From Siphonodentalium dalli (lineage: Eukaryota; Mollusca; Scaphopoda; Gadilida; Siphonodentaliidae), in NCBI GenBank assembly GCA_032622095.1, contig CP136063.1:271863426-271927425 (forward strand): a stretch of DNA of 64,000 bases, given 5' to 3'. The first letter of the stretch is position 1. The number at the start of each line of letters is the position of its first letter. The translations under genes and the position numbers were made by a program. Shown here piece by piece: positions 1-64,000 of this stretch. The notes under the pieces are model-generated. The model ran no database searches. It was not told the DNA's origin and saw only the letters and a list, made by a program, of their open reading frames with translations.

Positions 1-570
1 TTACAAATAAAGAACGCTCATTGTTCGTCTATTCCTGGTATGTTACAAATAAAGAGCGTTCATCGTTAGTCTATTCCTGGTATGTTACAAATAAAGAACG
101 CTCATTGTTAGTCTATTCCTGGTATGTTACAAATAAAGAGCGTTCATCGTTAGTCTATTCCTGGTATGTTAGAAATAAAGAACGCTCATTGATTGTCTAT
201 TCCTGGTATGTTACAAATAAAGAACACTCATTGTTAGTCTATTCCTGGTATGTTATAAATAAAGAGCGTTCATTGTTAGTCTATTCATGATATATTACAC
301 ATAAAGAACGCTCATTGTTAGTCTTACTCCTGGTATGTTACAAATAAAGAACGCTCATTGTTAGTCTTACTCCTGGTATGTTACAAATAAAGAGCGTTCA
401 TTGTTAGTCTTACTCCTGGTATGTTACAAATAAAGAGAGTTCATTGTTAGTCTATTCCTGGTATGTTACAAATAAAGAACCCTCATTGTTAGTCTATTCC
501 TGGATTGTAACCAACAAAGAACGTCCATTGTTAGTCTTATTCATGGTATGTTACAAATAAAGAACGCTCA

Positions 571-882
571 TTGTTAGTCTATTCCTGGTATGTTACAAAT
601 AAAGAGCGTTCATCGTTAGTCTATTCCTGGTATGTTACAAATAAAGAACGCTCATTGTTAGTCTATTCCTGGTATGTTACAAATAAAGAGCGTTCATTGT
701 TAGTCTATTCCTGGTATGTTACAAATAAAGAACGCTCATTGTTTGTCTATTCCTGGTATGTTACAAATAAAGAACGCTCACCGTTAGTCTATTCCTGGTA
801 TGTTATAAATAAAGAGCGTTTATTGTTAGTCTATTCCTCGTTTGTTATAAATAAAGAGCGTACATTGTTAGTCTATTCCTGA
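571..882 (+). other. 103-codon open tract class; probably not a gene
   Basis: Always lies 281 bp after the end of a 159- or 187-codon tract and closes at CCTGATATATTACAC. Same class at 4,134-4,445, 5,907-6,218, 9,640-9,951, 12,180-12,491, 18,075-18,386, 19,848-20,159, 23,581-23,892, 26,121-26,432, 29,639-29,950, 32,179-32,490, 34,463-34,774, 39,290-39,601, 41,830-42,141, 47,589-47,900, 52,035-52,346, 57,794-58,105 and 61,094-61,405. Confidence 0.75.
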
Positions 883-1198
883 TATATTACACTTAAAAAA
901 CGCTCATTGTTAGTCTTACTCCTGGTATGTTACAAATAAAGAGCGTTCATTGTTAGTCTTACTCCTGGTATGTTTCAAATAAAGAATGTTCATTGTTAGT
1001 CTATTCCTGGTATGTTACACACAAAGAGCGTTCATTGTCAGTCTACTCATTGTATATTACCAATAAAGACCGTCCCTTGTTAGTATATTCATGGTATGTT
1101 ACAAATAAAGATCGTTCATTGTTAGTCTTATTCCTGGTATGTTACAAATAAAGAGCGTTCATTGTTAGTCTTACACATTGTATGTTACAAATAAAGAG

Positions 1199-1240
1199 CG
1201 TTCACTGTTAGTCACCTCCTGACAAATAACCAATACTGAG
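1199..1240. repeat. Divergent CACCTCC marker monomer (one of 24)
   Basis: A 42-bp monomer whose middle reads CACCTCCTGACAAATAACC then AATACTGAGC. Compared with the consensus it lacks GTATGTT after CCTG and gains CCAATAC before the GAGC core, so a 7-bp loss and a 7-bp gain cancel. Its CACCTCC element starts at 1213, 4732, 6549, 10282, 12778, 18673, 20490, 24223, 26719, 30281, 32778, 35105, 36163, 39932, 42428, 43404, 44462, 48231, 50137, 52633, 53609, 54667, 58436 and 61692. It is the best single landmark for counting cassettes. Confidence 0.9.
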
Positions 1241-2602
1241 CGTTCATTGTTAGTCTATTCCTGGTATGTTACCAATAAAGATCATTCATTGTTAGTCTTA
1301 TTCCTGTGATGTTACAAATAAACAGCGTTAATTGTTAGTCTATTCTTGGTATGTTACAAATAAAGAGCGTTCATTGTTAGTCTTACTCCTGGTATGTTAC
1401 AAATAAAGAACACTCATTGTTAGTCTATTCCTGGTATGTTATAAATAAAGAGCGTTCCTTGTTAGTATATTCATGGTATGTTACAAATAAAGATCGTGCA
1501 TTGTTAGTCTTATTCCTGGTATGTTACACATAAAGAGCGTTCATTGTTAGTCTACTCATTGTATATTACCAATAAAGAGCGTTCCTTGTTAGAAAATTCA
1601 TGGTATGTTACAAATAAAGATCGTTCATTGTTAGTCTTATTCCTGGTATGTTACAAATAAAGAACGCTCATTGTTAGTCTATTCCTGGTATGTTATAAAT
1701 AAAGAGCGTTCCTTGTTAGTATATTCATGGTATGTTACAATTAAAGATCGTGCATTGTTAGTCTTATTCCTGGTATGTTACACATAAAGAGCGTTCATTG
1801 TTAGTCTACTCATTGTATATTACCAATAAAGAGCGTTCCTTGTTAGAAAATTCATGGTATGTTACAAATAAAGATCGTTCATTGTTAGTCTTATTCCTGG
1901 TATGTTACAAATAAAGAACGCTCATTGTTAGTCTATTCCTGGTATGTTACAAATAAAGAGCGTTAATTGTTAGTCTATTCCTGGTATGTAACCAACAAGG
2001 AACGTCCATTGTTAGTCTTATTCATGGTATGTTACAAATAAAGAGTGTTCATTGTTAGTCTTACTCCTGGTATGTTACAAATAAAGAACGCTCATTGCTA
2101 GTCTATTCCTGGTATGTTACAAATAAAGAGCGTTCATTGTTAGTCTTATTCCTGGTATGTTACAAATAAAGAACGCTCATTTTTAGTTTTATTCCTGGTA
2201 TGTTACAAATAAAGAGCGTTCATTGTTAGTCTATTCCTGGTTTGTTACAAATAAAGAGCGTTTATTGTTTGTCTATTCCTGGTATGTAACCAACAAAGAA
2301 CGTCCATTGTTAGTCTTATTCCTGGTATGTTACACATAAAGAGCGTTCATTGTTAGTATATTCATTGTTTGTTACCAATAAAGACCGTTCATTGTTAGTC
2401 TTAGTCATGGTATGTTACAAATAGAGAGCGTCCCTTGTTAGTATATTCATGGTATGTTACACATAAAGATCGTTCATTGTTAGTCTTATTCCTGGCATGT
2501 TACAAATAAAGAGCGTTCATTGTTAGTCTTACACATTGTATGTTACAAATAAAGAGCGTTCATTGTTAGTCTATTCCTGGTTTGTTACAAATAAATAACG
2601 CT

Positions 2603-2620
2603 CATTGTTATATAGTCTAT
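2603..2620. repeat. 46-bp monomer with TATA insertion (one of 10)
   Basis: CATTGTTA is followed by an extra TATA before GTCTATTCTTGG, giving the only +4 length class. TATA starts at 2611, 8033, 14091, 16552, 21974, 28032, 37683, 45982, 56187 and 63005. It is always preceded by a TAAATAACG monomer. A TATATA string in an AT-rich satellite is no evidence of a promoter. Confidence 0.88.
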
Positions 2621-3373
2621 TCTTGGTATGTTACAAATAAAGAGCGTTCATTGTTAGTCTTACTCCTGGTATGTTACAAATAAAGAACGCTCATTGTTAG
2701 TCTATTCCTGGTATGTTATAAATAAAGAGCGTTCCTTGTTAGTATATTCATGGTATGTTACAATTAAAGATCGTGCATTGTTAGTCTTATTCCTGGTATG
2801 TTACACATAAAGAGCGTTCATTGTTAGTCTACTCATTGTATATTACCAATAAAGAGCGTTCCTTGTTAGAAAATTCATGGTATGTTACAAATAAAGATCG
2901 TTCATTGTTAGTCTTATTCCTGGTATGTTACAAATAAAGAACGCTCATTGTTAGTCTATTCCTGGTATGTTACAAATAAAGAGCGTTAATTGTTAGTCTA
3001 TTCCTGGTATGTAACCAACAAGGAACGTCCATTGTTAGTCTTATTCATGGTATGTTACAAATAAAGAGCGTTCATTGCTAGTCTTACTCCTGGTATGTGA
3101 CAAATAAAGAACGCTCATTATTAGTCTTACTCTTGGTAGGTTACATATAAAGAGCGTTGATTGATAGTCTATTATTGGTATGTTACATATAAAGAACGCT
3201 CATTGTTAGTCTTACTCCTGGTATGTTACAAATAAAGAGTGTTCATTGTTAGTCTTACTCCTGGTATGTTACAAATAAAGAACGCTCATTGCTAGTCTAT
3301 TCCTGGTATGTTACAAATAAAGAGCGTTCATTGTTAGTCTTATTCCTGGTATGTTACAAATAAATAACGCTCA

Positions 3374-3853
3374 TTGTTAGTCTATTCCTGGTGTGTTACA
3401 AATAAAGAGCGTTCATTGTTAGTCTATACCTGGTATGATACAAATAAAGAGCGTTCATTGTTAGTCTACTCATTGTATATTACCAATAAAGAGCGTTCCT
3501 TGTTAGAAAATTCATGGTATGTTACAAATAAAGAACGCTCATTGTTCGTCTTTTCCTGGTATGTTACAAATAAAGAGCGTTCATCGTTAGTCTATTCCTG
3601 GTATGTTATAAATAATGAGCGTTCATCGTTAGTCTATTCCTGGTATGTTACAAATAAAGAACGCTCATTGTTAGTCTATTCCTGGTATGTTACAAATAAA
3701 GAGCGTTCATCGTTAGTCTATTCCTGGTATGTTACAAATAAAGAACGCTCATTGATTGTCTATTCCTGGTATGTTACAAATAAAGAACACTCATTGTTAG
3801 TCTATTCCTGGTATGTTATAAATAAAGAGCGTTCATTGTTAGTCTATTCATGA
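3374..3853 (+). other. 159-codon open tract class; probably not a gene
   Basis: Like the 187-codon class but two monomers shorter, with FSWYV and VINNERSS variants. Same class at 11,420-11,899, 17,315-17,794, 25,361-25,840, 31,419-31,898, 41,070-41,549, 51,275-51,754, 59,574-60,053 and 60,334-60,813. Confidence 0.75.
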
Positions 3854-5062
3854 TATATTACACATAAAGAACGCTCATTGTTAGTCTTACTCCTGGTATG
3901 TTACAAATAAAGAACGCTCATTGTTAGTCTTACTCCTGGTATGTTACAAATAAAGAGCGTTCATTGTTAGTCTTACTCCTGGTATGTTACAAATAAAGAG
4001 AGTTCATTGTTAGTCTATTCCTGGTATGTTACAAATAAAGAACCCTCTTTGTTAGTCTATTCCTGGATTGTAACCAACAAAGAACGTCCATTGTTAGTCT
4101 TATTCATGGTATGTTACAAATAAAGAACGCTCATTGTTAGTCTATTCCTGGTATGTTACAAATAAAGAGCGTTCATCGTTAGTCTATTCCTGGTATGTTA
4201 CAAATAAAGAACGCTCATTGTTAGTCTATTCCTGGTATGTTACAAATAAAGAGCGTTCATCGTTAGTCTATTCCTGGTATGTTACAAATAAAGAACTCTC
4301 ATTGTTTGTCTATTCCTGGTATGTTACAAATAAAGAACGCTCATCGTTAGTCTATTCCTGGTATGTTATAAATAAAGAGCGTTTATTGTTAGTCTATTCC
4401 TCGTTTGTTATAAATAAAGAGCGTTCATTGTTAGTCTATTCCTGATATATTACACATAAAGAACGCTCATTGTTAGTCTTACTCCTGGTATGTTACAAAT
4501 AAAGAATGTTCATTGTTAGTCTATTCCAGGTGTGTTACACATAAAGAGCGTTCATTGTCAGTCTACTCATTGTATATTACCAATAAGAGCGTCCCTTGTT
4601 AGTATATTCATGGTATGTTACAAATAAAGATCGTTCATTGTTAGTCTTATTCCTGGTATGTTTCAAATAAAGAGCGTTCATTGTTAGTCTTACACATTGT
4701 ATGTTACAAATAAAGAGCGTTCACTGTTAGTCACCTCCTGACAAATAACCAATACTGAGCGTTCATTGTTAGTCTATTCCTGGTATGTTACCAATAAAGA
4801 TCATTCATTGTTAGTCTTATTCCTGTGATGTTACAAATAAAGAGCGTTAATTGTTAGTCTATTCTTGGTATGTTACAAATAAAGAGCGTTCATTGTTAGT
4901 CTTACTCCTGGTATGTTACAAATAAAGAACGCTCATTGTTAGTCTATTCCTGGTATGTTATAAATAAAGAGCGTTCCATGTTAGTATATTCATGGTATGT
5001 TACAAATAAAGAGCGTTCATTGTTAGTCTTATTCCTGGTATGTTACAAATAAATAACGCTCA
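3374..5062. repeat. 1,689-bp cassette
   Basis: Opens with CTGGTGTG after a TAAATAACG monomer. Open tracts lie at 3,374-3,853 and 4,134-4,445, separated by a frame-closed stretch containing 43-bp monomers. The CACCTCC marker is at 4,732. It ends with the unusual GTTCCATG near 4,976. Confidence 0.88.
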
Positions 5063-8000
5063 TTGTTAGTCTATTCCTGGTTTGTTACAAATAAAGAGCG
5101 TTCATTGTTAGTCTATACCTGGTATGATACAAATAAAGAGCGTTCATTGTTAGTCTACTCATTGTATATTACCAATAAAGAGCGTTCCTTGTTAGAAAAT
5201 TCATGGTATGTTACAAATAAAGAACGCTCATTGTTCGTCTATTCCTGGTATGTTACAAATAAAGAGCGTTCATCGTTAGTCTATTCCTGGTATGTTACAA
5301 ATAAAGAACGCTCATTGTTAGTCTATTCCTGGTATGTTACAAATAAAGAACGCTCATTGTTCGTCTATTCCTGGTATGTTACAAATAAAGAGCGTTCATC
5401 GTTAGTCTATTCCTGGTATGTTACAAATAAAGAACGCTCATTGTTAGTCTATTCCTGGTATGTTACAAATAAAGAGCGTTCATCGTTAGTCTATTCCTGG
5501 TATGTTAGAAATAAAGAACGCTCATTGATTGTCTATTCCTGGTATGTTACAAATAAAGAACACTCATTGTTAGTCTATTCCTGGTATGTTATAAATAAAG
5601 AGCGTTCATTGTTAGTCTATTCATGATATATTACACATAAAGAACGCTCATTGTTAGTCTTACTCCTGGTATGTTACAAATAAAGAACGCTCATTGTTAG
5701 TCTTACTCCTGGTATGTTACAAATAAAGAGCGTGCATTGTTAGTCTTACTCCTGGTATGTTACAAATAAAGAGAGTTCATTGTTAGTCTATTCCTGGTAT
5801 GTTACAAATAAAGAACCCTCATTGTTAGTCTATTCCTGGATTGTAACCAACAAAGAACGTCCATTGTTAGTCTTATTCATGGTATGTTACAAATAAAGAA
5901 CGCTCATTGTTAGTCTATTCCTGGTATGTTACAAATAAAGAGCGTTCATCGTTAGTCTATTCCTGGTATGTTACAAATAAAGAACGCTCATTGTTAGTCT
6001 ATTCCTGGTATGTTACAAATAAAGAGCGTTCATTGTTAGTCTATTCCTGGTATGTTACAAATAAAGAACGCTCATTGTTTGTCTATTCCTGGTATGTTAC
6101 AAATAAAGAACGCTCACCGTTAGTCTATTCCTGGTATGTTATAAATAAAGAGCGTTTATTGTTAGTCTATTCCTCGTTTGTTATAAATAAAGAGCGTACA
6201 TTGTTAGTCTATTCCTGATATATTACACTTAAAAAACGCTCATTGTTAGTCTTACTCCTGGTATGTTACAAATAAAGAGCGTTCATTGTTAGTCTTACTC
6301 CTGGTATGTTTCAAATAAAGAATGTTCATTGTTAGTCTATTCCTGGTATGTTACACACAAAGAGCGTTCATTGTCAGTCTACTCATTGTATATTACCAAT
6401 AAAGACCGTCCCTTGTTAGTATATTCATGGTATGTTACAAATAAAGATCGTTCATTGTTAGTCTTATTCCTGGTATGTTACAAATAAAGAGCGTTCATTG
6501 TTAGTCTTACACATTGTATGTTACAAATAAAGAGCGTTCACTGTTAGTCACCTCCTGACAAATAACCAATACTGAGCGTTCATTGTTAGTCTATTCCTGG
6601 TATGTTACCAATAAAGATCATTCATTGTTAGTCTTATTCCTGTGATGTTACAAATAAACAGCGTTAATTGTTAGTCTATTCTTGGTATGTTACAAATAAA
6701 GAGCGTTCATTGTTAGTCTTACTCCTGGTATGTTACAAATAAAGAACACTCATTGTTAGTCTATTCCTGGTATGTTATAAATAAAGAGCGTTCCTTGTTA
6801 GTATATTCATGGTATGTTACAAATAAAGATCGTGCATTGTTAGTCTTATTCCTGGTATGTTACACATAAAGAGCGTTCATTGTTAGTCTACTCATTGTAT
6901 ATTACCAATAAAGAGCGTTCCTTGTTAGAAAATTCATAGTATGTTACAAATAAAGATCGTTCATTGTTAGTCTTATTCCTGGTATGTTACAAATAAAGAA
7001 CGCTCATTGTTAGTCTATTCCTGGTATGTTATAAATAAAGAGCGTTCCTTGTTAGTATATTCATGGTATGTTACAATTAAAGATCGTGCATTGTTAGTCT
7101 TATTCCTGGTATGTTACACATAAAGAGCGTTCATTGTTAGTCTACTCATTGTATATTACCAATAAAGAGCGTTCCTTGTTAGAAAATTCATGGTATGTTA
7201 CAAATAAAGATCGTTCATTGTTAGTCTTATTCCTGGTATGTTACAAATAAAGAACGCTCATTGTTAGTCTATTCCTGGTATGTTACAAATAAAGAGCGTT
7301 AATTGTTAGTCTATTCCTGGTATGTAACCAACAAGGAACGTCCATTGTTAGTCTTATTCATGGTATGTTACAAATAAAGAGCGTTCATTGCTAGTCTTAC
7401 TCCTGGTATGTGACAAATAAAGAACGCTCATTATTAGTCTTACTCTTGGTAGGTTACATATAAAGAGCGTTGATTGATAGTCTATTATTGGTATGTTACA
7501 TATAAAGAACGCTCATTGTTAGTCTTACTCCTGGTATGTTACAAATAAAGAGTGTTCATTGTTAGTCTTATTCCTGGTATGTTACAAATAAAGAACGCTC
7601 ATTTTTAGTTTTATTCCTGGTATGTTACAAATAAAGAGCGTTCATTGTTAGTCTATTCCTGGTTTGTTACAAATAAAGAGCGTTTATTGTTTGTCTATTC
7701 CTGGTATGTAACCAACAAAGAACGTCCATTGTTTGTCTTATTCCTGGTATGTTACACATAAAGAGCGTTCATTGTTAGTATATTCATTGTTTGTTACCAA
7801 TAAAGACCGTTCATTGTTAGTCTTAGTCATGGTATGTTACAAATAGAGAGCGTCCCTTGTTAGTATATTCATGGTATGTTACACATAAAGATCGTTCATT
7901 GTTAGTCTTATTCCTGGCATGTTACAAATAAAGAGCGTTCATTGTTAGTCTTACACATTGTATGTTACAAATAAAGAGCGTTCATTGTTAGTCTATTCCT

Positions 8001-8795
8001 GGTTTGTTACAAATAAATAACGCTCATTGTTATATAGTCTATTCTTGGTATGTTACAAATAAAGAGCGTTCATTGTTAGTCTTACTCCTGGTATGTTACA
8101 AATAAAGAACGCTCATTGTTAGTCTATTCCTGGTATGTTATAAATAAAGAGCGTTCCTTGTTAGTATATTCATGGTATGTTACAATTAAAGATCGTGCAT
8201 TGTTAGTCTTATTCCTGGTATGTTACACATAAAGAGCGTTCATTGTTAGTCTACTCATTGTATATTACCAATAAAGAGCGTTCCTTGTTAGAAAATTCAT
8301 GGTATGTTACAAATAAAGATCGTTCATTGTTAGTCTTATTCCTGGTATGTTACAAATAAAGAACGCTCATTGTTAGTCTATTCCTGGTATGTTACAAATA
8401 AAGAGCGTTAATTGTTAGTCTATTCCTGGTATGTAACCAACAAGGAACGTCCATTGTTAGTCTTATTCATGGTATGTTACAAATAAAGAGCGTTCATTGC
8501 TAGTCTTACTCCTGGTATGTGACAAATAAAGAACGCTCATTATTAGTCTTACTCTTGGTAGGTTACATATAAAGAGCGTTGATTGATAGTCTATTATTGG
8601 TATGTTACATATAAAGAACGCTCATTGTTAGTCTTACTCCTGGTATGTTACAAATAAAGAGTGTTCATTGTTAGTCTTACTCCTGGTATGTTACAAATAA
8701 AGAACGCTCATTGCTAGTCTATTCCTGGTATGTTACAAATAAAGAGCGTTCATTGTTAGTCTTATTCCTGGTATGTTACAAATAAATAACGCTCA
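5063..8795. repeat. 3,733-bp cassette
   Basis: Open tracts at 5,063-5,626 and 5,907-6,218; CACCTCC marker at 6,549; 46-bp monomer at 8,033. It contains a CATTTTTAGTTTTATTCC monomer near 7,600 that marks the entry to the 1,235-bp-like segment. Confidence 0.88.
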
Positions 8796-9359
8796 TTGTT
8801 AGTCTATTCCTGGTGTGTTACAAATAAAGAGCGTTCATTGTTAGTCTATACCTGGTATGATACAAATAAAGAGCGTTCATTGTTAGTCTACTCATTGTAT
8901 ATTACCAATAAAGAGCGTTCCTTGTTAGAAAATTCATGGTATGTTACAAATAAAGAACGCTCATTGTTCGTCTATTCCTGGTATGTTACAAATAAAGAGC
9001 GTTCATCGTTAGTCTATTCCTGGTATGTTACAAATAAAGAACGCTCATTGTTAGTCTATTCCTGGTATGTTACAAATAAAGAACGCTCATTGTTCGTCTA
9101 TTCCTGGTATGTTACAAATAAAGAGCGTTCATCGTTAGTCTATTCCTGGTATGTTACAAATAAAGAACGCTCATTGTTAGTCTATTCCTGGTATGTTACA
9201 AATAAAGAGCGTTCATCGTTAGTCTATTCCTGGTATGTTAGAAATAAAGAACGCTCATTGATTGTCTATTCCTGGTATGTTACAAATAAAGAACACTCAT
9301 TGTTAGTCTATTCCTGGTATGTTATAAATAAAGAGCGTTCATTGTTAGTCTATTCATGA
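8796..9359 (+). other. 187-codon open tract class; probably not a gene
   Basis: About thirteen in-frame 42-bp monomers, including the diagnostic residues YTWYDTNKERS, YSLYITNKERS and ENSWYVTNKERS near the start. The tract closes at TCATGA in a GATATATTACAC monomer. Same class at 5,063-5,626, 19,004-19,567, 22,737-23,300, 28,795-29,358, 33,619-34,182, 38,446-39,009, 46,745-47,308 and 56,950-57,513. Confidence 0.75.
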
Positions 9360-11419
9360 TATATTACACATAAAGAACGCTCATTGTTAGTCTTACTCCT
9401 GGTATGTTACAAATAAAGAACGCTCATTGTTAGTCTTACTCCTGGTATGTTACAAATAAAGAGCGTTCATTGTTAGTCTTACTCCTGGTATGTTACAAAT
9501 AAAGAGAGTTCATTGTTAGTCTATTCCTGGTATGTTACAAATAAAGAACCCTCATTGTTAGTCTATTCCTGGATTGTAACCAACAAAGAACGTCCATTGT
9601 TAGTCTTATTCATGGTATGTTACAAATAAAGAACGCTCATTGTTAGTCTATTCCTGGTATGTTACAAATAAAGAGCGTTCATCGTTAGTCTATTACTGGT
9701 ATGTTACAAATAAAGAACGCTCATTGTTAGTCTATTCCTGGTATGTTACAAATAAAGAGCGTTCATTGTTAGTCTATTCCTGGTATGTTACAAATAAAGA
9801 ACGCTCATTGTTTGTCTATTCCTGGTATGTTACAAATAAAGAACGCTCACCGTTAGTCTATTCCTGGTATGTTATAAATAAAGAGCGTTTATTGTTAGTC
9901 TATTCCTCGTTTGTTATAAATAAAGAGCGTACATTGTTAGTCTATTCCTGATATATTACACTTAAAAAACGCTCATTGTTAGTCTTACTCCTGGTATGTT
10001 ACAAATAAAGAGCGTTCATTGTTAGTCTTACTCCTGGTATGTTTCAAATAAAGAATGTTCATTGTTAGTCTATTCCTGGTATGTTACACACAAAGAGCGT
10101 TCATAGTCAGTCTACTCATTGTATATTACCAATAAAGACCGTCCCTTGTTAGTATATTCATGGTATGTTACAAATAAAGATCGTTCATTGTTAGTCTTAT
10201 TCCTGGTATGTTACAAATAAAGAGCGTTCATTGTTAGTCTTACACATTGTATGTTACAAATAAAGAGCGTTCACTGTTAGTCACCTCCTGACAAATAACC
10301 AATACTGAGCGTTCATTGTTAGTCTATTCCTGGTATGTTACCAATAAAGATCATTCATTGTTAGTCTTATTCCTGTGATGTTACAAATAAACAGCGTTAA
10401 TTGTTAGTCTATTCTTGGTATGTTACAAATAAAGAGCGTTCATTGTTAGTCTTACTCCTGGTATGTTACAAATAAAGAACACTCATTGTTAGTCTATTCC
10501 TGGTATGTTATAAATAAAGAGCGTTCCTTGTTAGTATATTCATGGTATGTTACAAATAAAGATCGTGCATTGTTAGTCTTATTCCTGGTATGTTACACAT
10601 AAAGAGCGTTCATTGTTAGTCTACTCATTGTATATTACCAATAAAGAGCGTTCCTTGTTAGAAAATTCATGGTATGTTACAAATAAAGATCGTTCATTGT
10701 TAGTCTTATTCCTGGTATGTTACAAATAAAGAACGCTCATTGTTAGTCTATTCCTGGTATGTTATAAATAAAGAGCGTTCCTTGTTAGTATATTCATGGT
10801 ATGTTACAATTAAAGATCGTGCATTGTTAGTCTTATTCCTGGTATGTTACACATAAAGAGCGTTCATTGTTAGTCTACTCATTGTATATTACCAATAAAG
10901 AGCGTTCCTTGTTAGAAAATTCATGGTATGTTACAAATAAAGATCGTTCATTGTTAGTCTTATTCCTGGTATGTTACAAATAAAGAACGCTCATTGTTAG
11001 TCTATTCCTGGTATGTTACAAATAAAGAGCGTTAATTGTTAGTCTATTCCTGGTATGTAACCAACAAGGAACGTCCATTGTTAGTCTTATTCATGGTATG
11101 TTACAAATAAAGAGCGTTCATTGCTAGTCTTACTCCTGGTATGTGACAAATAAAGAACGCTCATTATTAGTCTTACTCTTGGTAGGTTACATATAAAGAG
11201 CGTTGATTGATAGTCTATTATTGGTATGTTACATATAAAGAACGCTCATTGTTAGTCTTACTCCTGGTATGTTACAAATAAAGAGTGTTCATTGTTAGTC
11301 TTACTCCTGGTATGTTACAAATAAAGAACGCTCATTGCTAGTCTATTCCTGGTATGTTACAAATAAAGAGCGTTCATTGTTAGTCTTATTCCTGGTATGT
11401 TACAAATAAATAACGCTCA
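8796..11419. repeat. 2,624-bp cassette (commonest type)
   Basis: Open tracts at 8,796-9,359 and 9,640-9,951; CACCTCC marker at 10,282. This exact length recurs at 22737, 28795, 38446, 46745 and 56950, in both large families, making it the most conserved building block. The variants TATTACTGG near 9,693 and TTCATAGTC near 10,103 are shared only with the copy at 22,737. Confidence 0.9.
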
Positions 11420-13618
11420 TTGTTAGTCTATTCCTGGTGTGTTACACATAAAGAGCGTTCATTGTTAGTCTATACCTGGTATGATACAAATAAAGAGCGT
11501 TCATTGTTAGTCTACTCATTGTATATTACCAATAAAGAGCGTTCCTTGTTAGAAAATTCATGGTATGTTACAAATAAAGAACGCTCATTGTTCGTCTTTT
11601 CCTGGTATGTTACAAATAAAGAGCGTTCATCGTTAGTCTATTCCTGGTGTGTTATAAATAATGAGCGTTCATCGTTAGTCTATTCCTGGTATGTTACAAA
11701 TAAAGAACGCTCATTGTTAGTCTATTCCTGGTATGTTACAAATAAAGAGCGTTCATCGTTAGTCTATTCCTGGTATGTTACAAATAAAGAACGCTCATTG
11801 ATTGTCTATTCCTGGTATGTTACAAATAAAGAACACTCATTGTTAGTCTATTCCTGGTATGTTATAAATAAAGAGCGTTCATTGTTAGTCTATTCATGAT
11901 ATATTACACATAAAGAACGCTCATTGTTAGTCTTACTCCTGGTATGTTACAAATAAAGAACGCTCATTGTTAGTCTTACTCCTGGTATGTTACAAATAAA
12001 GAGCGTTCATTGTTAGTCTTACTCCTGGTATGTTACAAATAAAGAGAGTTCATTGTTAGTCTATTCCTGGTATGTTACAAATAAAGAACCCTCTTTGTTA
12101 GTCTATTCCTGGATTGTAACCAACAAAGAACGTCCATTGTTAGTCTTATTCATGGTATGTTACAAATAAAGAACGCTCATTGTTAGTCTATTCCTGGTAT
12201 GTTACAAATAAAGAGCGTTCATCGTTAGTCTATTCCTGGTATGTTACAAATAAAGAACGCTCATTGTTAGTCTATTCCTGGTATGTTACAAATAAAGAGC
12301 GTTCATCGTTAGTCTATTCCTGGTATGTTACAAATAAAGAACTCTCATTGTTTGTCTATTCCTGGTATGTTACAAATAAAGAACGCTCATCGTTAGTCTA
12401 TTCCTGGTATGTTATAAATAAAGAGCGTTTATTGTTAGTCTATTCCTCGTTTGTTATAAATAAAGAGCGTTCATTGTTAGTCTATTCCTGATATATTACA
12501 CATAAAGAACGCTCATTGTTAGTCTTACTCCTGGTATGTTACAAATAAAGAATGTTCATTGTTAGTCTATTCCAGGTGTGTTACACATAAAGAGCGTTCA
12601 TTGTCAGTCTACTCATTGTATATTACCAATAAGAGCGTCCCTTGTTAGTATATTCATGGTATGTTACAAATAAAGATCGTTCATTGTTAGTCTTATTCCT
12701 GGTATGTTTCAAATAAAGAGCGTTCATTGTTAGTCTTACACATTGTATGTTACAAATAAAGAGCGTTCACTGTTAGTCACCTCCTGACAAATAACCAATA
12801 CTGAGCGTTCATTGTTAGTCTATTCCTGGTATGTTACCAATAAAGATCATTCATTGTTAGTCTTATTCCTGTGATGTTACAAATAAAGAGCGTTAATTGT
12901 TAGTCTATTCTTGGTATGTTACAAATAAAGAGCGTTCATTGTTAGTCTTACTCCTGGTATGTTACAAATAAAGAACGCTCATTGTTAGTCTATTCCTGGT
13001 ATGTTATAAATAAAGAGCGTTCCTTGTTAGTATATTCATGGTATGTTACAAATAAAGATCGTGCATTGTTAGTCTTATTCCTGGTATGTTACACATAAAG
13101 AGCGTTCATTGTTAGTCTACTCATTGTATATTACCAATAAAGAGCGTTCCTTGTTAGAAAATTCATGGTATGTTACAAATAAAGATCGTTCATTGTTAGT
13201 CTTATTCCTGGTATGTTACAAATAAAGAACGCTCATTGTTAGTCTATTCCTGGTATGTTACAAATAAAGAGCGTTAATTGTTAGTCTATTCCTGGTATGT
13301 AACCAACAAGGAACGTCCATTGTTAGTCTTACTCCTGGTATGTTACAAATAAAGAACGCTCATTATTAGTCTTACTCTTGGTATGTTACATATAAAGAGC
13401 GTTGATTGATAGTCTATTATTGGTATGTTACATATAAAGAACGCTCATTGTTAGTCTTACTCCTGGTATGTTACAAATAAAGAGTGTTCATTGTTAGTCT
13501 TACTCCTGGTATGTTACAAATAAAGAACGCTCATTGCTAGTCTATTCCTGGTATGTTACAAATAAAAAGCGTTCATTGTTAGTCTTATTCCTGGTATGTT
13601 ACAAATAAATAACGCTCA
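11420..13618. repeat. 2,199-bp cassette
   Basis: Open tracts at 11,420-11,899 and 12,180-12,491; CACCTCC marker at 12,778. The first monomer reads TTACACAT rather than TTACAAAT, shared only with the copy at 25,361. A 41-bp monomer (ACCAATAAGAGCG, two A where most copies have three) lies near 12,628. Confidence 0.88.
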
Positions 13619-14853
13619 TTGTTAGTCTATTCCTGGTATGTTACAAATAAAGAGCGTTCATTGTTAGTCTATACATGGTATGATACAAATAAAGAGCGTT
13701 CATTGTTAGTCTATTCCTGGTTTGTTACAAATAAAGAGCGTTTATTGTTTGTCTATTCCTGGTATGTAACCAACAAAGAACGTCCATTGTTAGTCTTATT
13801 CCTGGTATGTTACACATAAAGAGCGTTCATTGTTAGTATATTCATTGTTTGTTACCAATAAAGACCGTTCATTGTTAGTCTTAGTCATGGTATGTTACAA
13901 ATAAAAAGCGTCCCTTGTTAGTATATTCATGGTATGTTACACATAAAGATCGTTCATTGTTAGTCTTATTCCTGGCATGTTACAAATAAAGAGCGTTCAT
14001 TGTTAGTCTTACACATTGTATGTTACAAATAAAGAGCGTTCATTGTTAGTCTATTCCTGGTTTGTTACAAATAAATAACGCTCATTGTTATATAGTCTAT
14101 TCTTGGTATGTTACAAATAAAGAGCGTTCATTGTTAGTCTTACTCCTGGTATGTTACAAATAAAGAACGCTCATTGTTAGTCTATTCCTGGTATGTTATA
14201 AATAAAGAGCGTTCCTTGTTAGTATATTCATGGTATGTTACAATTAAAGATCGTGCATTGTTAGTCTTATTCCTGGTATGTTACACATAAAGAGCGTTCA
14301 TTGTTAGTCTACTCATTGTATATTACCAATAAAGAGCGTTCCTTGTTAGAAAATTCATGGTATGTTACAAATAAAGATCGTTCATTGTTAGTCTTATTCC
14401 TGGTATGTTACAAATAAAGAACGCTCATTGTTAGTCTATTCCTGGTATGTTACAAATAAAGAGCGTTAATTGTTAGTCTATTCCTGGTATGTAACCAACA
14501 AGGAACGTCCATTGTTAGTCTTATTCATGGTATGTTACAAATAAAGAGCGTTCATTGCTAGTCTTACTCCTGGTATGTGACAAATAAAGAACGCTCATTA
14601 TTAGTCTTACTCTTGGTAGGTTACATATAAAGAGCGTTGATTGATAGTCTATTATTGGTATGTTACATATAAAGAACGCTCATTGTTAGTCTTACTCCTG
14701 GTATGTTACAAATAAAGAGTGTTCATTGTTAGTCTTACTCCTGGTATGTTACAAATAAAGAACGCTCATTGCTAGTCTATTCCTGGTATGTTACAAATAA
14801 AGAGCGTTCATTGTTAGTCTTATTCCTGGTATGTTACAAATAAATAACGCTCA
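13619..14853. repeat. 1,235-bp cassette
   Basis: Short open tract 13,619-13,819, then a stretch rich in 43-bp monomers with a 46-bp monomer at 14,091 and the AGGTTACATATAAAG variant near 14,617. No CACCTCC marker. Confidence 0.88.
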
Positions 14854-15474
14854 TTGTTAGTCTATTCCTGGTGTGTTACAAATAAAGAGCGTTCATTGTT
14901 AGTCTATACCTGGTATGATACAAATAAAGAGCGTTCATTGTTAGTCTACTCATTGTATATTACCAATAAAGAGCGTTCCTTGTTAGAAAATTCATGGTAT
15001 GTTACAAATAAAGAACGCTCATTGTTCGTCTATTCCTGGTATGTTACAAATAAAGAGCGTTCATCGTTAGTCTATTCCTGGTATGTTACAAATAAAGAAC
15101 GCTCATTGTTAGTCTATTCCTGGTATGTTACAAATAAAGAACGCTCATTGTTCGTCTATTCCTGGTATGTTACAAATAAAGAGCGTTCATCGTTAGTCTA
15201 TTCCTGGTATGTTACAAATAAAGAACGCTCATTGTTAGTCTATTCCTGGTATGTTACAAATAAAGAGCGTTCATCGTTAGTCTATTCCTGGTATGTTAGA
15301 AATAAAGAACGCTCATTGATTGTCTATTCCTGGTATGTTACAAATAAAGAACACTCATTGTTAGTCTATTCCTGGTATGTTATAAATAAAGAGCGTTCCT
15401 TGTTAGTATATTCATGGTATGTTACAAATAAAGATCGTGCATTGTTAGTCTTATTCCTGGTATGTTACACATAA
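14854..15474 (+). other. Hybrid 206-codon open tract across the 13.9-kb joint
   Basis: Identical in type to the 187-codon class up to the VINKERS monomer. It then reads on through CCTTGTTAGTATATTCATGG and a DRALLV monomer instead of stopping. The change of ending coincides with the 15,328-15,398 crossover interval, so the extra length is a product of recombination. Confidence 0.85.
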
Positions 15475-44919: not shown

Positions 44920-46744
44920 TTGTTAGTCTATTCCTGGTGTGTTACAAATAAAGAGCGTTCATTGTTAGTCTATACCTGGTATGATACAAATAAAGAGCGT
45001 TCATTGTTAGTCTACTCATTGTATATTACCAATAAAGAGCGTTCCTTGTTAGATAATTCATGGTATGTTACAAATAAAGAACGCTCATTGTTCGCCTATT
45101 CCTGGTATGTTACAAATAAAGAGCGTTCATCGTTAGTCTATTCCTGGTATGTTACAAATAAAGAACGCTCATTGTTAGTCTATTCCTGGTATGTTACAAA
45201 TAAAGAACGCTCATTGTTCGTCTATTCCTGGTATGTTACAAATAAAGAGCGTTCATCGTTAGTCTATTCCTGGTATGTTACAAATAAAGAACGCTCATTG
45301 TTAGTCTATTCCTGGTATGTTACAAACAAAGAGCGTTCATCGTTAGTCTATTCCTGGTATGTTACAAATAAAGAACGCTCATTGTTTGTCTATTCCTGGT
45401 ATGTTACAAATAAAGAACACTCATTGTTAGTCTATTCATGGTATGTTACAAATAAAGAGCGTTCATTGTTAGTCTATTACAGGTATGTTACAAATAAAGA
45501 ACGTTTATTGCTAATCTTATTCCTGGTATGTTACAAATAAAGAACGCTCATTTTTAGTTTTATTCCTGGTATGTTACAAATAAAGAGCGTTCATTGTTAG
45601 TCTATTCCTGGTTTGTTACAAATAAAGAGCGTTTATTGTTTGTCTATTCCTGGTATGTAACCAACAAAGAACGTCCATTGTTAGTCTTATTCCTGGTATG
45701 TTACACATAAAGAGCGTTCATTGTTAGTATATTCATTGTTTGTTACCAATAAAGACCGTTCATTGTTAGTCTTAGTCATGGTATGTTACAAATAGAGAGC
45801 GTCCCTTGTTAGTATATTCATGGTATGTTACACATAAAGATCGTTCATTGTTAGTCTTATTCCTGGCATGTTACAAATAAAGAGCGTTCATTGTTAGTCT
45901 TACACATTGTATGTTACAAATAAAGAGCGTTCATTGTTAGTCTATTCCTGGTTTGTTACAAATAAATAACGCTCATTGTTATATAGTCTATTCTTGGTAT
46001 GTTACAAATAAAGAGCGTTCATTGTTAGTCTTACTCCTGGTATGTTACAAATAAAGAACGCTCATTGTTAGTCTATTCCTGGTATGTTATAAATAAAGAG
46101 CGTTCCTTGTTAGTATATTCATGGTATGTTACAATTAAAGATCGTGCATTGTTAGTCTTATTCCTGGTATGTTACACATAAAGAGCGTTCATTGTTAGTC
46201 TACTCATTGTATATTACCAATAAAGAGCGTTCCTTGTTAGAAAATTCATGGTATGTTACAAATAAAGATCGTTCATTGTTAGTCTTATTCCTGGTATGTT
46301 ACAAATAAAGAACGCTCATTGTTAGTCTATTCCTGGTATGTTACAAATAAAGAGCGTTAATTGTTAGTCTATTCCTGGTATGTAACCAACAAGGAACGTC
46401 CATTGTTAGTCTTATTCATGGTATGTTACAAATAAAGAGCGTTCATTGCTAGTCTTACTCCTGGTATGTGACAAATAAAGAACGCTCATTATTAGTCTTA
46501 CTCTTGGTAGGTTACATATAAAGAGCGTTGATTGATAGTCTATTATTGGTATGTTACATATAAAGAACGCTCATTGTTAGTCTTACTCCTGGTATGTTAC
46601 AAATAAAGAGTGTTCATTGTTAGTCTTACTCCTGGTATGTTACAAATAAAGAACGCTCATTGCTAGTCTATTCCTGGTATGTTACAAATAAAGAGCGTTC
46701 ATTGTTAGTCTTATTCCTGGTATGTTACAAATAAATAACGCTCA
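44920..46744. repeat. 1,825-bp cassette, second copy
   Basis: Holds most of open tract 44,851-45,540; 46-bp monomer at 45,982. Confidence 0.87.
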
Positions 46745-49368
46745 TTGTTAGTCTATTCCTGGTGTGTTACAAATAAAGAGCGTTCATTGTTAGTCTATAC
46801 CTGGTATGATACAAATAAAGAGCGTTCATTGTTAGTCTACTCATTGTATATTACCAATAAAGAGCGTTCCTTGTTAGAAAATTCATGGTATGTTACAAAT
46901 AAAGAACGCTCATTGTTCGTCTATTCCTGGTATGTTACAAATAAAGAGCGTTCATCGTTAGTCTATTCCTGGTATGTTACAAATAAAGAACGCTCATTGT
47001 TAGTCTATTCCTGGTATGTTACAAATAAAGAACGCTCATTGTTCGTCTATTCCTGGTATGTTACAAATAAAGAGCGTTCATCGTTAGTCTATTCCTGGTA
47101 TGTTACAAATAAAGAACGCTCATTGTTAGTCTATTCCTGGTATGTTACAAATAAAGAGCGTTCATCGTTAGTCTATTCCTGGTATGTTAGAAATAAAGAA
47201 CGCTCATTGATTGTCTATTCCTGGTATGTTACAAATAAAGAACACTCATTGTTAGTCTATTCCTGGTATGTTATAAATAAAGAGCGTTCATTGTTAGTCT
47301 ATTCATGATATATTACACATAAAGAACGCTCATTGTTAGTCTTACTCCTGGTATGTTACAAATAAAGAACGCTCATTGTTAGTCTTACTCCTGGTATGTT
47401 ACAAATAAAGAGCGTTCATTGTTAGTCTTACTCCTGGTATGTTACAAATAAAGAGAGTTCATTGTTAGTCTATTCCTGGTATGTTACAAATAAAGAACCC
47501 TCATTGTTAGTCTATTCCTGGATTGTAACCAACAAAGAACGTCCATTGTTAGTCTTATTCATGGTATGTTACAAATAAAGAACGCTCATTGTTAGTCTAT
47601 TCCTGGTATGTTACAAATAAAGAGCGTTCATCGTTAGTCTATTCCTGGTATGTTACAAATAAAGAACGCTCATTGTTAGTCTATTCCTGGTATGTTACAA
47701 ATAAAGAGCGTTCATTGTTAGTCTATTCCTGGTATGTTACAAATAAAGAACGCTCATTGTTTGTCTATTCCTGGTATGTTACAAATAAAGAACGCTCACC
47801 GTTAGTCTATTCCTGGTATGTTATAAATAAAGAGCGTTTATTGTTAGTCTATTCCTCGTTTGTTATAAATAAAGAGCGTACATTGTTAGTCTATTCCTGA
47901 TATATTACACTTAAAAAACGCTCATTGTTAGTCTTACTCCTGGTATGTTACAAATAAAGAGCGTTCATTGTTAGTCTTACTCCTGGTATGTTTCAAATAA
48001 AGAATGTTCATTGTTAGTCTATTCCTGGTATGTTACACACAAAGAGCGTTCATTGTCAGTCTACTCATTGTATATTACCAATAAAGACCGTCCCTTGTTA
48101 GTATATTCATGGTATGTTACAAATAAAGATCGTTCATTGTTAGTCTTATTCCTGGTATGTTACAAATAAAGAGCGTTCATTGTTAGTCTTACACATTGTA
48201 TGTTACAAATAAAGAGCGTTCACTGTTAGTCACCTCCTGACAAATAACCAATACTGAGCGTTCATTGTTAGTCTATTCCTGGTATGTTACCAATAAAGAT
48301 CATTCATTGTTAGTCTTATTCCTGTGATGTTACAAATAAACAGCGTTAATTGTTAGTCTATTCTTGGTATGTTACAAATAAAGAGCGTTCATTGTTAGTC
48401 TTACTCCTGGTATGTTACAAATAAAGAACACTCATTGTTAGTCTATTCCTGGTATGTCATAAATAAAGAGCGTTCCTTGTTAGTATATTCATGGTATGTT
48501 ACAAATAAAGATCGTGCATTGTTAGTCTTATTCCTGGTATGTTACACATAAAGAGCGTTCATTGTTAGTCTACTCATTGTATATTACCAATAAAGAGCGT
48601 TCCTTGTTAGAAAATTCATGGTATGTTACAAATAAAGATCGTTCATTGTTAGTCTTATTCCTGGTATGTTACAAATAAAGAACGCTCATTGTTAGTCTAT
48701 TCCTGGTATGTTATAAATAAAGAGCGTTCCTTGTTAGTATATTCATGGTATGTTACAATTAAAGATCGTGCATTGTTAGTCTTATTCCTGGTATGTTACA
48801 CATAAAGAGCGTTCATTGTTAGTCTACTCATTGTATATTACCAATAAAGAGCGTTCCTTGTTAGAAAATTCATGGTATGTTACAAATAAAGATCGTTCAT
48901 TGTTAGTCTTATTCCTGGTATGTTACAAATAAAGAACGCTCATTGTTAGTCTATTCCTGGTATGTTACAAATAAAGAGCGTTAATTGTTAGTCTATTCCT
49001 GGTATGTAACCAACAAGGAACGTCCATTGTTAGTCTTATTCATGGTATGTTACAAATAAAGAGCGTTCATTGCTAGTCTTACTCCTGGTATGTGACAAAT
49101 AAAGAACGCTCATTATTAGTCTTACTCTTGGTAGGTTACATATAAAGAGCGTTGATTGATAGTCTATTATTGGTATGTTACATATAAAGAACGCTCATTG
49201 TTAGTCTTACTCCTGGTATGTTACAAATAAAGAGTGTTCATTGTTAGTCTTACTCCTGGTATGTTACAAATAAAGAACGCTCATTGCTAGTCTATTCCTG
49301 GTATGTTACAAATAAAGAGCGTTCATTGTTAGTCTTATTCCTGGTATGTTACAAATAAATAACGCTCA
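46745..49368. repeat. 2,624-bp cassette, fifth copy
   Basis: Open tracts 46,745-47,308 and 47,589-47,900; marker at 48,231; C variant at 48,458. Confidence 0.88.
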
Positions 49369-49749
49369 TTGTTAGTCTATTCCTGGTGTGTTACAAATAA
49401 AGAGCGTTCATTGTTAGTCTATACCTGGTATGATACAAATAAAGAGCGTTCATTGTTAGTCTACTCATTGTATATTACCAATAAAGAGCGTTCCTTGTTA
49501 GAAAATTCATGGTATGTTACAAATAAAGAACGCTCATTGTTCGTCTTTTCCTGGTATGTTACAAATAAAGAGCGTTCATCGTTAGTCTATTCCTGGTATG
49601 TTATAAATAATGAGCGTTCATCGTTAGTCTATTCCTGGTATGTTACAAATAAAGAACGCTCATTGTTAGTCTATTCCTGGTATGTTACAAATAAAGAGCG
49701 TTCATCGTTAGTCTATTCCTGGTATGTTACAAATAAAGAACGCTCATTG
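47844..49749. repeat. 1,906-bp tandem duplication, first copy
   Basis: Sequence from TTAGTCTATTCCTCG at 47,844 through 49,749 recurs 1,906 bp later. The length fits 45 monomers (29 of 42 bp and 16 of 43 bp). It holds the point variant GTCATAAAT (C at 48,458), which the second copy lacks (T at 50,364). Confidence 0.9.
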
Positions 49750-60325: not shown

Positions 60326-60333
60326 AACGCTCA
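59574..60333. repeat. 760-bp truncated cassette
   Basis: Contains only the 159-codon-type tract (59,574-60,053) and the frame-closed stretch after it. The rest of the cassette, including the 103-codon tract and the CACCTCC marker, is absent because of the 760-bp crossover. Confidence 0.88.
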
Positions 60334-61085
60334 TTGTTAGTCTATTCCTGGTGTGTTACAAATAAAGAGCGTTCATTGTTAGTCTATACCTGGTATGATA
60401 CAAATAAAGAGCGTTCATTGTTAGTCTACTCATTGTATATTACCAATAAAGAGCGTTCCTTGTTAGAAAATTCATGGTATGTTACAAATAAAGAACGCTC
60501 ATTGTTCGTCTTTTCCTGGTATGTTACAAATAAAGAGCGTTCATCGTTAGTCTATTCCTGGTATGTTATAAATAATGAGCGTTCATCGTTAGTCTATTCC
60601 TGGTATGTTACAAATAAAGAACGCTCATTGTTAGTCTATTCCTGGTATGTTACAAATAAAGAGCGTTCATCGTTAGTCTATTCCTGGTATGTTACAAATA
60701 AAGAACGCTCATTGATTGTCTATTCCTGGTATGTTACAAATAAAGAACACTCATTGTTAGTCTATTCCTGGTATGTTATAAATAAAGAGCGTTCATTGTT
60801 AGTCTATTCATGATATATTACACATAAAGAACGCTCATTGTTAGTCTTACTCCTGGTATGTTACAAATAAAGAACGCTCATTGTTAGTCTTACTCCTGGT
60901 ATGTTACAAATAAAGAGCGTTCATTGTTAGTCTTACTACTGGTATGTTACAAATAAAGAGAGTTCATTGTTAGTCTATTCCTGGTATGTTACAAATAAAG
61001 AACCCTCTTTGTTAGTCTATTCCTGGATTGTAACCAACAAAGAACGTCCATTGTTAGTCTTATTCATGGTATGTTACAAATAAAG
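60326..61085. repeat. 760-bp tandem duplication, second copy
   Basis: Open tract 60,334-60,813 and the ACTACTGG variant near 60,936 repeat those of the first copy. The joint lies in the 27 shared bases 60,326-60,352, bounded by G60325/T59565 on the left and by the GGTGTG versus GGTATG difference at 60,353 on the right. Confidence 0.9.
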
Positions 61086-62532
61086 AACGCTCATTGTTAG
61101 TCTATTCCTGGTATGTTACAAATAAAGAGCGTTCATCGTTAGTCTATTCCTGGTATGTTACAAATAAAGAACGCTCATTGTTAGTCTATTCCTGGTATGT
61201 TACAAATAAAGAGCGTTCATCGTTAGTCTATTCCTGGTATGTTACAAATAAAGAACTCTCATTGTTTGTCTATTCCTGGTATGTTACAAATAAAGAACGT
61301 TCATCGTTAGTCTATTCCTGGTATGTTATAAATAAAGAGCGTTTATTGTTAGTCTATTCCTCGTTTGTTATAAATAAAGAGCGTTCATTGTTAGTCTATT
61401 CCTGATATATTACACATAAAGAACGCTCATTGTTAGTCTTACTCCTGGTATGTTACAAATAAAGAATGTTCATTGTTAGTCTATTCCAGGTGTGTTACAC
61501 ATAAAGAGCGTTCATTGTCAGTCTACTCATTGTATATTACCAATAAGAGCGTCCCTTGTTAGTATATTCATGGTATGTTACAAATAAAGATCGTTCATTG
61601 TTAGTCTTATTCCTGGTATGTTTCAAATAAAGAGCGTTCATTGTTAGTCTTACACATTGTATGTTACAAATAAAGAGCGTTCACTGTTAGTCACCTCCTG
61701 ACAAATAACCAATACTGAGCGTTCATTGTTAGTCTATTCCTGGTATGTTACCAATAAAGATCATTCATTGTTAGTCTTATTCCTGTGATGTTACAAATAA
61801 AGAGCGTTAATTGTTAGTCTATTCTTGGTATGTTACAAATAAAGAGCGTTCATTGTTAGTCTTACTCCTGGTATGTTACAAATAAAGAACGCTCATTGTT
61901 AGTCTATTCCTGGTATGTTATAAATAAAGAGCGTTCCTTGTTAGTATATTCATGGTATGTTACAAATAAAGATCGTGCATTGTTAGTCTTATTCCTGGTA
62001 TGTTACACATAAAGAGCGTTCATTGTTAGTCTACTCATTGTATATTACCAATAAAGAGCGTTCCTTGTTAGAAAATTCATGGTATGTTACAAATAAAGAT
62101 CGTTCATTGTTAGTCTTATTCCTGGTATGTTACAAATAAAGAACGCTCATTGTTAGTCTATTCCTGGTATGTTACAAATAAAGAGCGTTAATTGTTAGTC
62201 TATTCCTGGTATGTAACCAACAAGGAACGTCCATTGTTAGTCTTACTCCTGGTATGTTACAAATAAAGAACGCTCATTATTAGTCTTACTCTTGGTATGT
62301 TACATATAAAGAGCGTTGATTGATAGTCTATTATTGGTATGTTACATATAAAGAACGCTCATTGTTAGTCTTACTCCTGGTATGTTACAAATAAAGAGTG
62401 TTCATTGTTAGTCTTACTCCTGGTATGTTACAAATAAAGAACGCTCATTGCTAGTCTATTCCTGGTATGTTACAAATAAAAAGCGTTCATTGTTAGTCTT
62501 ATTCCTGGTATGTTACAAATAAATAACGCTCA
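60334..62532. repeat. 2,199-bp cassette, third regular copy
   Basis: Open tracts 60,334-60,813 and 61,094-61,405; marker at 61,692. Confidence 0.88.
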
Positions 62533-64000
62533 TTGTTAGTCTATTCCTGGTATGTTACAAATAAAGAGCGTTCATTGTTAGTCTATACATGGTATGATAC
62601 AAATAAAGAGCGTTCATTGTTAGTCTATTCCTGGTTTGTTACAAATAAAGAGCGTTTATTGTTTGTCTATTCCTGGTATGTAACCAACAAAGAACGTCCA
62701 TTGTTAGTCTTATTCCTGGTATGTTACACATAAAGAGCGTTCATTGTTAGTATATTCATTGTTTGTTACCAATAAAGACCGTTCATTGTTAGTCTTAGTC
62801 ATGGTATGTTACAAATAAAGAGCGTCCCTTGTTAGTATATTCATGGTATGTTACACATAAAGATCGTTCATTGTTAGTCTTATTCCTGGCATGTTACAAA
62901 TAAAGAGCGTTCATTGTTAGTCTTACACATTGTATGTTACAAATAAAGAGCGTTCATTGTTAGTCTATTCCTGGTTTGTTACAAATAAATAACGCTCATT
63001 GTTATATAGTCTATTCTTGGTATGTTACAAATAAAGAGCGTTCATTGTTAGTCTTACTCCTGGTATGTTACAAATAAAGAACGCTCATTGTTAGTCTATT
63101 CCTGGTATGTTATAAATAAAGAGCGTTCCTTGTTAGTATATTCATGGTATGTTACAATTAAAGATCGTGCATTGTTAGTCTTATTTCTGGTATGTTACAC
63201 ATAAAGAGCGTTCATTGTTAGTCTACTCATTGTATATTACCAATAAAGAGCGTTCCTTGTTAGAAAATTCATGGTATGTTACAAATAAAGATCGTTCATT
63301 GTTAGTCTTATTCCTGGTATGTTACAAATAAAGAACGCTCATTGTTAGTCTATTCCTGGTATGTTACAAATAAAGAGCGTTAATTGTTAGTCTATTCCTG
63401 GTATGTAACCAACAAGGAACGTCCATTGTTAGTCTTATTCATGGTATGTTACAAATAAAGAGCGTTCATTGCTAGTCTTACTCCTGGTATGTGACAAATA
63501 AAGAACGCTCATTATTAGTCTTACTCTTGGTAGGTTACATATAAAGAGCGTTGATTGATAGTCTATTATTGGTATGTTACATATAAAGAACGCTCATTGT
63601 TAGTCTTACTCCTGGTATGTTACAAATAAAGAGTGTTCATTGTTAGTCTTACTCCTGGTATGTTACAAATAAAGAACGCTCATTGCTAGTCTATTCCTGG
63701 TATGTTACAAATAAAGAGCGTTCATTGTTAGTCTTATTCCTGGTATGTTACAAATAAATAACGCTCATTGTTAGTCTATTCCTGGTGTGTTACAAATAAA
63801 GAGCGTTCATTGTTAGTCTATACCTGGTATGATACAAATAAAGAGCGTTCATTGTTAGTCTACTCATTGTATATTACCAATAAAGAGCGTTCCTTGTTAG
63901 AAAATTCATGGTATGTTACAAATAAAGATCGCTCATTGTTCGTCTATTCCTGGTATGTTACAAATAAAGAGCGTTCATCGTTAGTCTATTCCTGGTATGT
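62400..64000. repeat. Right-hand tail, cassette type of the 13.9-kb family
   Basis: Matches 13,486-15,086 at offset 48,914, and 27,427-29,027 at offset 34,973. Differences seen include AATAAAGAGCG near 62,815 where 13,901 has AATAAAAAGCG, TTATTTCTGG near 63,182, and GATCGCTC near 63,927. It runs off the window. Confidence 0.88.
62533..63767. repeat. 1,235-bp cassette, third copy
   Basis: Open tract 62,533-62,733; 46-bp monomer at 63,005. The next cassette starts at 63,768 and is cut by the window end. Confidence 0.88.

Follow-up and report, generated by a model that had tools for sequence, protein, structure and literature searches.

Introduction

Two well-described kinds of repetitive DNA provide the comparison for the locus analysed here: alpha satellite, with a monomer of about 171 bp and a CENP-B box in part of its copies, and the inverted-repeat centromeres of fission yeast, in which a core is flanked by repeats in opposite orientation. 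The longest higher-order repeat (HOR) reported for human alpha satellite in one account is a 52-mer on chromosome 21, present in two copies with 0.2% divergence (PMC12385485), the earlier record being a 34-mer (PMC12385485; PMC8122249). In the oyster Crassostrea gigas, chromatin immunoprecipitation (ChIP) with CenH3 is reported to have revealed no centromere-specific repeat, and the most abundant satellite, which labels several centromeres by fluorescence in situ hybridization (FISH), has a longest reported array of about 40 kb (PMC8268682). The present locus is a satellite with a 42/43-bp monomer on contig C3 (CP136063.1) of the scaphopod Siphonodentalium dalli. We analysed a stretch of 64,000 nucleotides, C3:271863426-271927425, which we call the window, together with its surroundings and the whole assembly (2,226,750,531 bases in nine contigs). 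The satellite probably occupies a single locus, where it forms two opposed megabase arms with largely different monomer pools.

The locus resembles fission yeast centromeres in having a core between oppositely oriented repeats, a likeness of topology only: it measures megabases rather than kilobases, its arms share few variants and its core contains a satellite island. Its monomer of 42/43 bp, compared with about 171 bp, sets it apart from alpha satellite, and the window contains no exact match to the CENP-B-box pattern, a box known from mammals. As in human alpha-satellite HORs, diverged monomers are arranged in near-identical units, and units occur in two copies as described for the 52-mer (PMC12385485). 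However, units here comprise 196-329 monomers, compared with at most 52 in that account, and their length varies from event to event. With 241 and 329 monomers, the two-copy units are longer in monomer count than the 52-mer but weaker than a many-copy HOR. The original prediction that such units are long for any satellite holds only against the human 34-mer and 52-mer of that account (PMC12385485), with the reservation that the units in the window are only two- to three-copy duplications. As described for C. gigas, several unrelated tandem arrays occur at scattered points of the chromosome (in 7 of the 59 C3 samples), but about 2.5 Mb of satellite lies at one locus here, compared with about 40 kb there (PMC8268682).

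Results

Tandem Repeats Finder, which we used for period and array extent, returned a single uninterrupted period-42 array over positions 1-64000, bearing out the prediction of 64 kb of pure satellite. Cutting by wrap-around alignment to the consensus gave 1,511 monomers (982 of 42 bp, 508 of 43 bp, 11 of 41 bp and 10 of 46 bp) with 116 distinct sequences, 17 of them singletons; 516 monomers lie within three mismatches of the consensus, and the GC fraction is 0.32-0.34 in all 32 steps of the window. The best consensus match on the opposite strand has 16 mismatches, and the window therefore has one orientation. We take the 232-codon open frames on its plus strand as a consequence of repeat composition, and a coding role for the satellite block is not likely. 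Long head-to-tail arrays of one monomer family, the hallmark of satellite DNA, are thus seen directly in the window and, by sampling, over arms of more than 1 Mb.

The arms were mapped on the one assembly from C3 samples 10-250 kb apart and from edge pieces. The array spans about 271.266-274.254 Mb of the 301.4-Mb contig, ends 27 Mb before the contig end, and has the following parts:

C3:271265566-272434042, plus strand: forward arm, ~1.17 Mb
Window 1-64000, plus strand: uninterrupted 42/43-bp satellite inside the forward arm, ~0.6 Mb from its outer edge
C3:272434042 to 272663114: first spacer, mostly non-satellite
C3:272663114 to at least 272805485: satellite island, opening with 8 forward monomers, mainly reverse as far as 272719245, forward again from 272719265
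To C3:273023971: second spacer, mostly non-satellite, followed by eight forward monomers again
C3:273024414-274254210, minus strand: reverse arm, ~1.23 Mb

The arms are separated by 0.59 Mb, mostly non-satellite but including a two-way satellite island, and the orientation map thus places this core between oppositely oriented copies of one repeat, as a matter of topology only. Within the island, the switch from reverse to forward at C3:272719245-272719265 is abrupt, with a short T run as its only mark. The scored sample pieces, which include edges, island and junction, contained no N.

Across the genome, 20,794 sites lie within three mismatches of the consensus, 11,309 forward and 9,485 reverse, with none for a control pattern; we used match totals, the listed places omitting 9 exact copies known in the window. 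Sixteen forward-arm samples contained 77 matches in 9,316 bases and sixteen reverse-arm samples 81 in 10,216. These densities, multiplied by arm lengths and with the island added, predict ~10,370 forward and ~10,190 reverse near-consensus monomers, ~20,560 in total or 99% of the count (92% for forward and 107% for reverse, with a sampling error of about 11% per arm). Because the expectation for the C3 locus matches the genome count, the family is single-locus as far as counts tell, and it probably occupies one locus on one chromosome. A karyotype-wide centromeric satellite would form large arrays on most chromosomes, whereas one C3 locus explains the counts here within about 10%. All 200 listed places of two exact-variant searches (100 of 117 and 100 of 171) are on C3, and near-consensus monomers outside the array number two among the places listed, at 270.405 Mb of C3.

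The two arms hold largely different monomer pools. In forward-arm samples from 271.30 to 272.15 Mb, a fraction of 0.50-1.00 of monomers is identical to a window monomer, except for 0.27 at 271.60 Mb; beyond 272.15 Mb this fraction is at most 0.30, apart from 0.45 at 272.75 Mb. Exact monomer sharing is 0.70-0.73 between the window and outer forward samples and 0.01-0.18, in either direction, between the window and reverse-segment samples, with three large pieces (L101-L103) including non-satellite stretches that were cut as monomers in the sharing figures. For reverse samples, the shared fraction is 0.60-0.85 against samples from the reverse island or from where the reverse arm begins, and 0.09-0.16 against the window. 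Of two variants picked as one-sided, the forward-arm variant occurs genome-wide 117 times forward and 0 times reverse, and the reverse-arm variant 0 times forward and 171 times reverse. With this low exact sharing and these one-strand variants, the flanks are not the near-identical pair of a fission-yeast-like centromere. Near-regular units also occur outside the window: at 271.968-272.025 Mb, 41-97 kb downstream of it, 12 of the 17 successive spacings of the forward-arm variant measure 3,432-3,478 bp and the other five 2,164, 2,753 (twice), 3,052 and 4,107 bp, while the reverse-arm variant has three spacings of 3,852 bp at 273.027-273.038 Mb.

Within the window, monomer pairs differ by a mean edit distance of 6.10 (about 14%), and three long repeats are superimposed on this diversity:

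1387-29339, plus strand: 13,941-bp tandem duplication, about two copies, 329 monomers per unit; 1387-15398 again at 15328-29339, 2 mismatches in 14,012 bp
34837-49749, plus strand: 8,299-bp period, 196 monomers per unit; 34837-41450 again at +8299, 1 mismatch in 6,614 bp
39541-59954, plus strand: 10,205-bp tandem duplication, two copies, 241 monomers per unit; copy 39541-49749, 0 mismatches in 10,209 bp

The periods of 13,941 and 8,299 bp and the units of 196 and roughly 330 monomers had been predicted, and both the periods and the unit sizes proved real. Mean edit distance falls to 4.44, 4.71 and 5.12 at lags of 329, 241 and 196 monomers, compared with 6.1 when monomer order was shuffled (200 shuffles per lag, nine lags, each with a mean of 6.1 and a standard deviation (SD) of about 0.05). 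At short range, adjacent monomers are more different than shuffled ones (6.45 against 6.11 edits, SD 0.045) and monomers three apart are less different (5.86 edits), a weak trimer layer of about 127 bp. Of the window, 91% falls within direct repeats that are exact over 1 kb or more, and 32% within those of 8 kb or more. Long copies differ by 0-0.015%, compared with about 14% between monomers, and the combination of 6.1 edits between monomers with 0-2 mismatches over 6.6-14 kb is a feature of HOR satellites and supports the predicted layered homogenisation. The 10,205-bp duplication was absent from the original prediction; it overlaps the 8,299-bp series, so that events differing in length are layered on one another. 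The long units have two to three copies each and differ in length, and we read the window as superposed duplications of different length rather than a closed tiling.

Seven fixed cassette lengths (1235, 1689, 1825, 2199, 2624, 3733 and 3850 bp) had also been proposed to tile the window without gaps. All seven recur among nearest-copy distances of exact 100-mers, where 2624 and 3733 are common (3,880 and 2,713 pairs) and the others are minor (1825, 384 pairs; 1235, 249; 2199, 230; 1689, 132; 3850, 91), but the gapless tiling fails even with the best-fitting 40-mer, a landmark selected for its fit to these lengths:

3350-63783, plus strand: 40-mer landmark, 23 copies, 22 intervals
Intervals 1-11 (bp): 1689, 3733, 2624, 2199, 1235, 2461, 1689, 3733, 2624, 2199, 1235
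Intervals 12-22 (bp): 2624, 2200, 4827, 2624, 5675, 2624, 1906, 5675, 2624, 2959, 1235

Only 15 of the 22 intervals, or 34,691 of 60,394 bp, match a cassette length exactly (16 if 2 bp are allowed), the others being 1906, 2200, 2461, 2959, 4827 and 5675 (twice).

The core itself appears rearranged. By BLAST, C3:272660000-272669157 and 273020857-273029998, each a spacer end with the satellite that follows it, are direct copies with 97.3% identity over 9,180 bp. Their 3.1-kb non-satellite part is 99.5% identical, BLAST giving 2 mismatches with 14 gap letters and MAFFT 4 mismatches. The satellite that follows runs in register with about 0.3% mismatches up to a break near 7.8 kb. On this assembly, the junction of spacer and reverse satellite has therefore been duplicated recently. 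The two identities, 97.3% and 99.5%, could be taken for much faster divergence of satellite than of unique DNA, a reading we rejected since most differences lie past the register break of about two monomers; a modest satellite excess persists in position-wise alignment (15 mismatches in 4.7 kb compared with 4 in 3.1 kb). A 4.0-kb piece from the inner end of the forward arm aligns with 272800702-272804757 at 95.1%, and the best copy of the left spacer edge lies in direct order at 272893788, not beside the forward island. A spacer piece at 273000000-273001500 has 98% copies at 272639118-272640644 and at 270717691-270719217, the latter outside the satellite, and segmental duplication around the array is thus evident. 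The mirror-like appearance of the samples had suggested a megabase palindrome, which we discarded: the spacer edges on the reverse side are direct copies, and the left edge is direct at 272.894 Mb. One sampled piece (L011) had no copy at its mirrored place among the 40 matches scored out of 1,060 candidates, which were mostly dispersed copies.

Elsewhere on C3, 59 further samples, mostly at 5-Mb steps, contained the 42-bp family in no case (0 of 59). In seven of them, other tandem arrays took up more than 400 of the 601 bases, with monomers of 66, 77, 174, 30, 68, 30 and 88 bp; several more had shorter arrays. An all-against-all comparison gave no match between any of the seven and another family. 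One of the seven extended to both points at a distance of 30 kb, its right end falling short of 200 kb; the other six reached neither point. The 66-bp array, itself sizeable, lies at C3:27.97-28.03 Mb, where three samples spanning 60 kb agree in strand, and it ends before 28.20 Mb. Tandem arrays are thus common on C3 and the 42/43-bp array is the largest met, although a second array of ~3 Mb could fit between samples.

Other satellites lie close to the locus. A GC-rich 142-bp repeat is found at C3:267000000-267001500, 4 Mb left of the array, and at 274254210-274260999, where it occurs together with a 35-bp repeat directly past the right edge. A 165-bp satellite, present at 269.0 and 270.0 Mb of C3, has 13,099 genome matches of a 36-mer within two mismatches. 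On C1, this satellite forms small islands in which the orientation turns from forward to reverse, such as 113677051-113683642, 124818448-124823194 and 137156945-137171421, and which resemble elements with inverted satellite arms; an exception at 169.115-169.130 Mb is forward only. We considered and rejected it as a centromere repeat shared across the karyotype, given its many small islands along C1 (the first 100 of the 13,099 matches, all on C1). The starts of C2, C4 and C5 lie inside arrays of 26-, 231- and 214-bp monomers. A TTAGGG-type array was found at the start of C3 alone among the nine contig starts and not in the last 600 bases of C3, and (TTAGG)7, the insect-type telomere repeat, has 0 matches. 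The TTAGGG-type array made a plant source improbable, as did a search for the RuBisCO small subunit that gave no match, a weak negative in that the control responded in a cyanobacterium alone. A haemocyanin search matched neither this assembly nor any control genome.

Discussion

We consider it likely that the locus is a satellite block specific to one chromosome and probably heterochromatic, in which unequal exchange homogenises the repeats of each arm but does not act from one arm to the other. In this model, one 42/43-bp repeat would have been amplified at an apparently single locus to about 2.5 Mb, and repeated unequal exchange, between sister chromatids or within the array, would have produced duplications of about 3-14 kb that homogenise each arm. 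Unequal exchange and slippage act on copies in the same orientation, and inverted arms are therefore not homogenised by them without rearrangement; inverted orientation would block unequal exchange between the arms and let each drift to its own variant set. An earlier inversion, which we infer, and a later duplication of the spacer/reverse junction could have led to the present order. Gene conversion between arms is not limited by orientation, and the scant sharing speaks against much of it. The cellular role is most probably that of structural heterochromatin.

Several observations weigh against this reading. The high sharing among reverse samples reflects in part the duplicated spacer/reverse junction. 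The zeros of the two counted variants illustrate and confirm the split but are no unbiased measure of it, both variants having been picked for one-sidedness in the samples, and unselected exact sharing between arms, though low, is above zero. Observed forward matches exceed expectation by ~9% and reverse matches fall ~7% below it, within sampling noise, and roughly 115 kb of the family elsewhere would escape the counts. The reverse arm includes forward monomers at 273.87-273.92 Mb, both orientations are present in the 272.70-Mb sample, and the final 22 kb of the forward arm contain copies of a repeat that is partly dispersed and found again in the second spacer. Both arms contain interruptions or flips finer than the sampling resolves.

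The locus might instead be the functional centromere or pericentromere of this chromosome, with a chromosome-specific satellite, a reading compatible with the exchange mechanism that we regard as possible but hold tentatively. The size of the array, the largest met on C3 at about 2.5 Mb compared with the other arrays in the 59 samples, argues for it, as do the neighbouring 165-bp and 142-bp satellites and the segmental duplication with its 98% spacer copies. Conversely, the counts allow for few copies of the family on the remaining eight contigs, and every listed place of each exact variant is on C3. A family confined to one contig speaks against a karyotype-wide centromere satellite but does not exclude a chromosome-specific centromere. 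The missing CENP-B-box pattern is a weak point against a centromere, the box being taken from mammals. In the oyster, CenH3 ChIP reportedly revealed no centromere-specific repeat, even though FISH places the most abundant satellite at several centromeres (PMC8268682).

It is unlikely that the two-arm layout is partly an artefact of assembly, in which joined haplotype contigs left a duplicated spacer edge and a switch of orientation. The spacer edge is indeed duplicated at 99.5%, in direct order and adjoining reverse satellite, and the single abrupt reverse-to-forward junction at 272719245/272719265 is what a false duplication could give. However, the pieces sampled at the edges, the island and the junction are free of N, and the best copy of the other spacer edge is at 272893788, a weak argument in that the element is locally repeated and partly dispersed. 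Moreover, the main arms carry different variants and can therefore hardly be two alleles of one arm.

A foldback or other terminal-inverted-repeat transposon whose inner tandem repeats expanded to megabase size is very improbable: the forward-spacer-reverse order, the forward-to-reverse passage of the 165-bp islands on C1 and the reported origin of a satellite from a foldback element in Drosophila virilis (PMC4079207) are in its favour, but the many dispersed copies expected of such an element are replaced in the counts by one locus, small dispersed 42-bp copies do not appear among the places listed save for the two monomers at 270.405 Mb, and five open reading frames (two from spacers) had no Pfam match above cut-off and one weak hit (E-value 0.33).

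Returning to a satellite block homogenised arm by arm, the layout amounts to a natural experiment in which one satellite family, in one place, is split by orientation and its variants follow the arm. Strand-wise counts of variants would let unequal crossover, which needs direct orientation, be tested against gene conversion, which does not. If the locus is centromeric, it would also provide a centromere that is specific to one chromosome and has non-satellite DNA at its core. More speculatively, and we think improbably, it could be a macro-dyad metazoan centromere, in which a partly duplicated non-satellite core for CENP-A lies between two opposed megabase arms that homogenise independently; were this so, the arm-private variants would record exchange restricted by strand.

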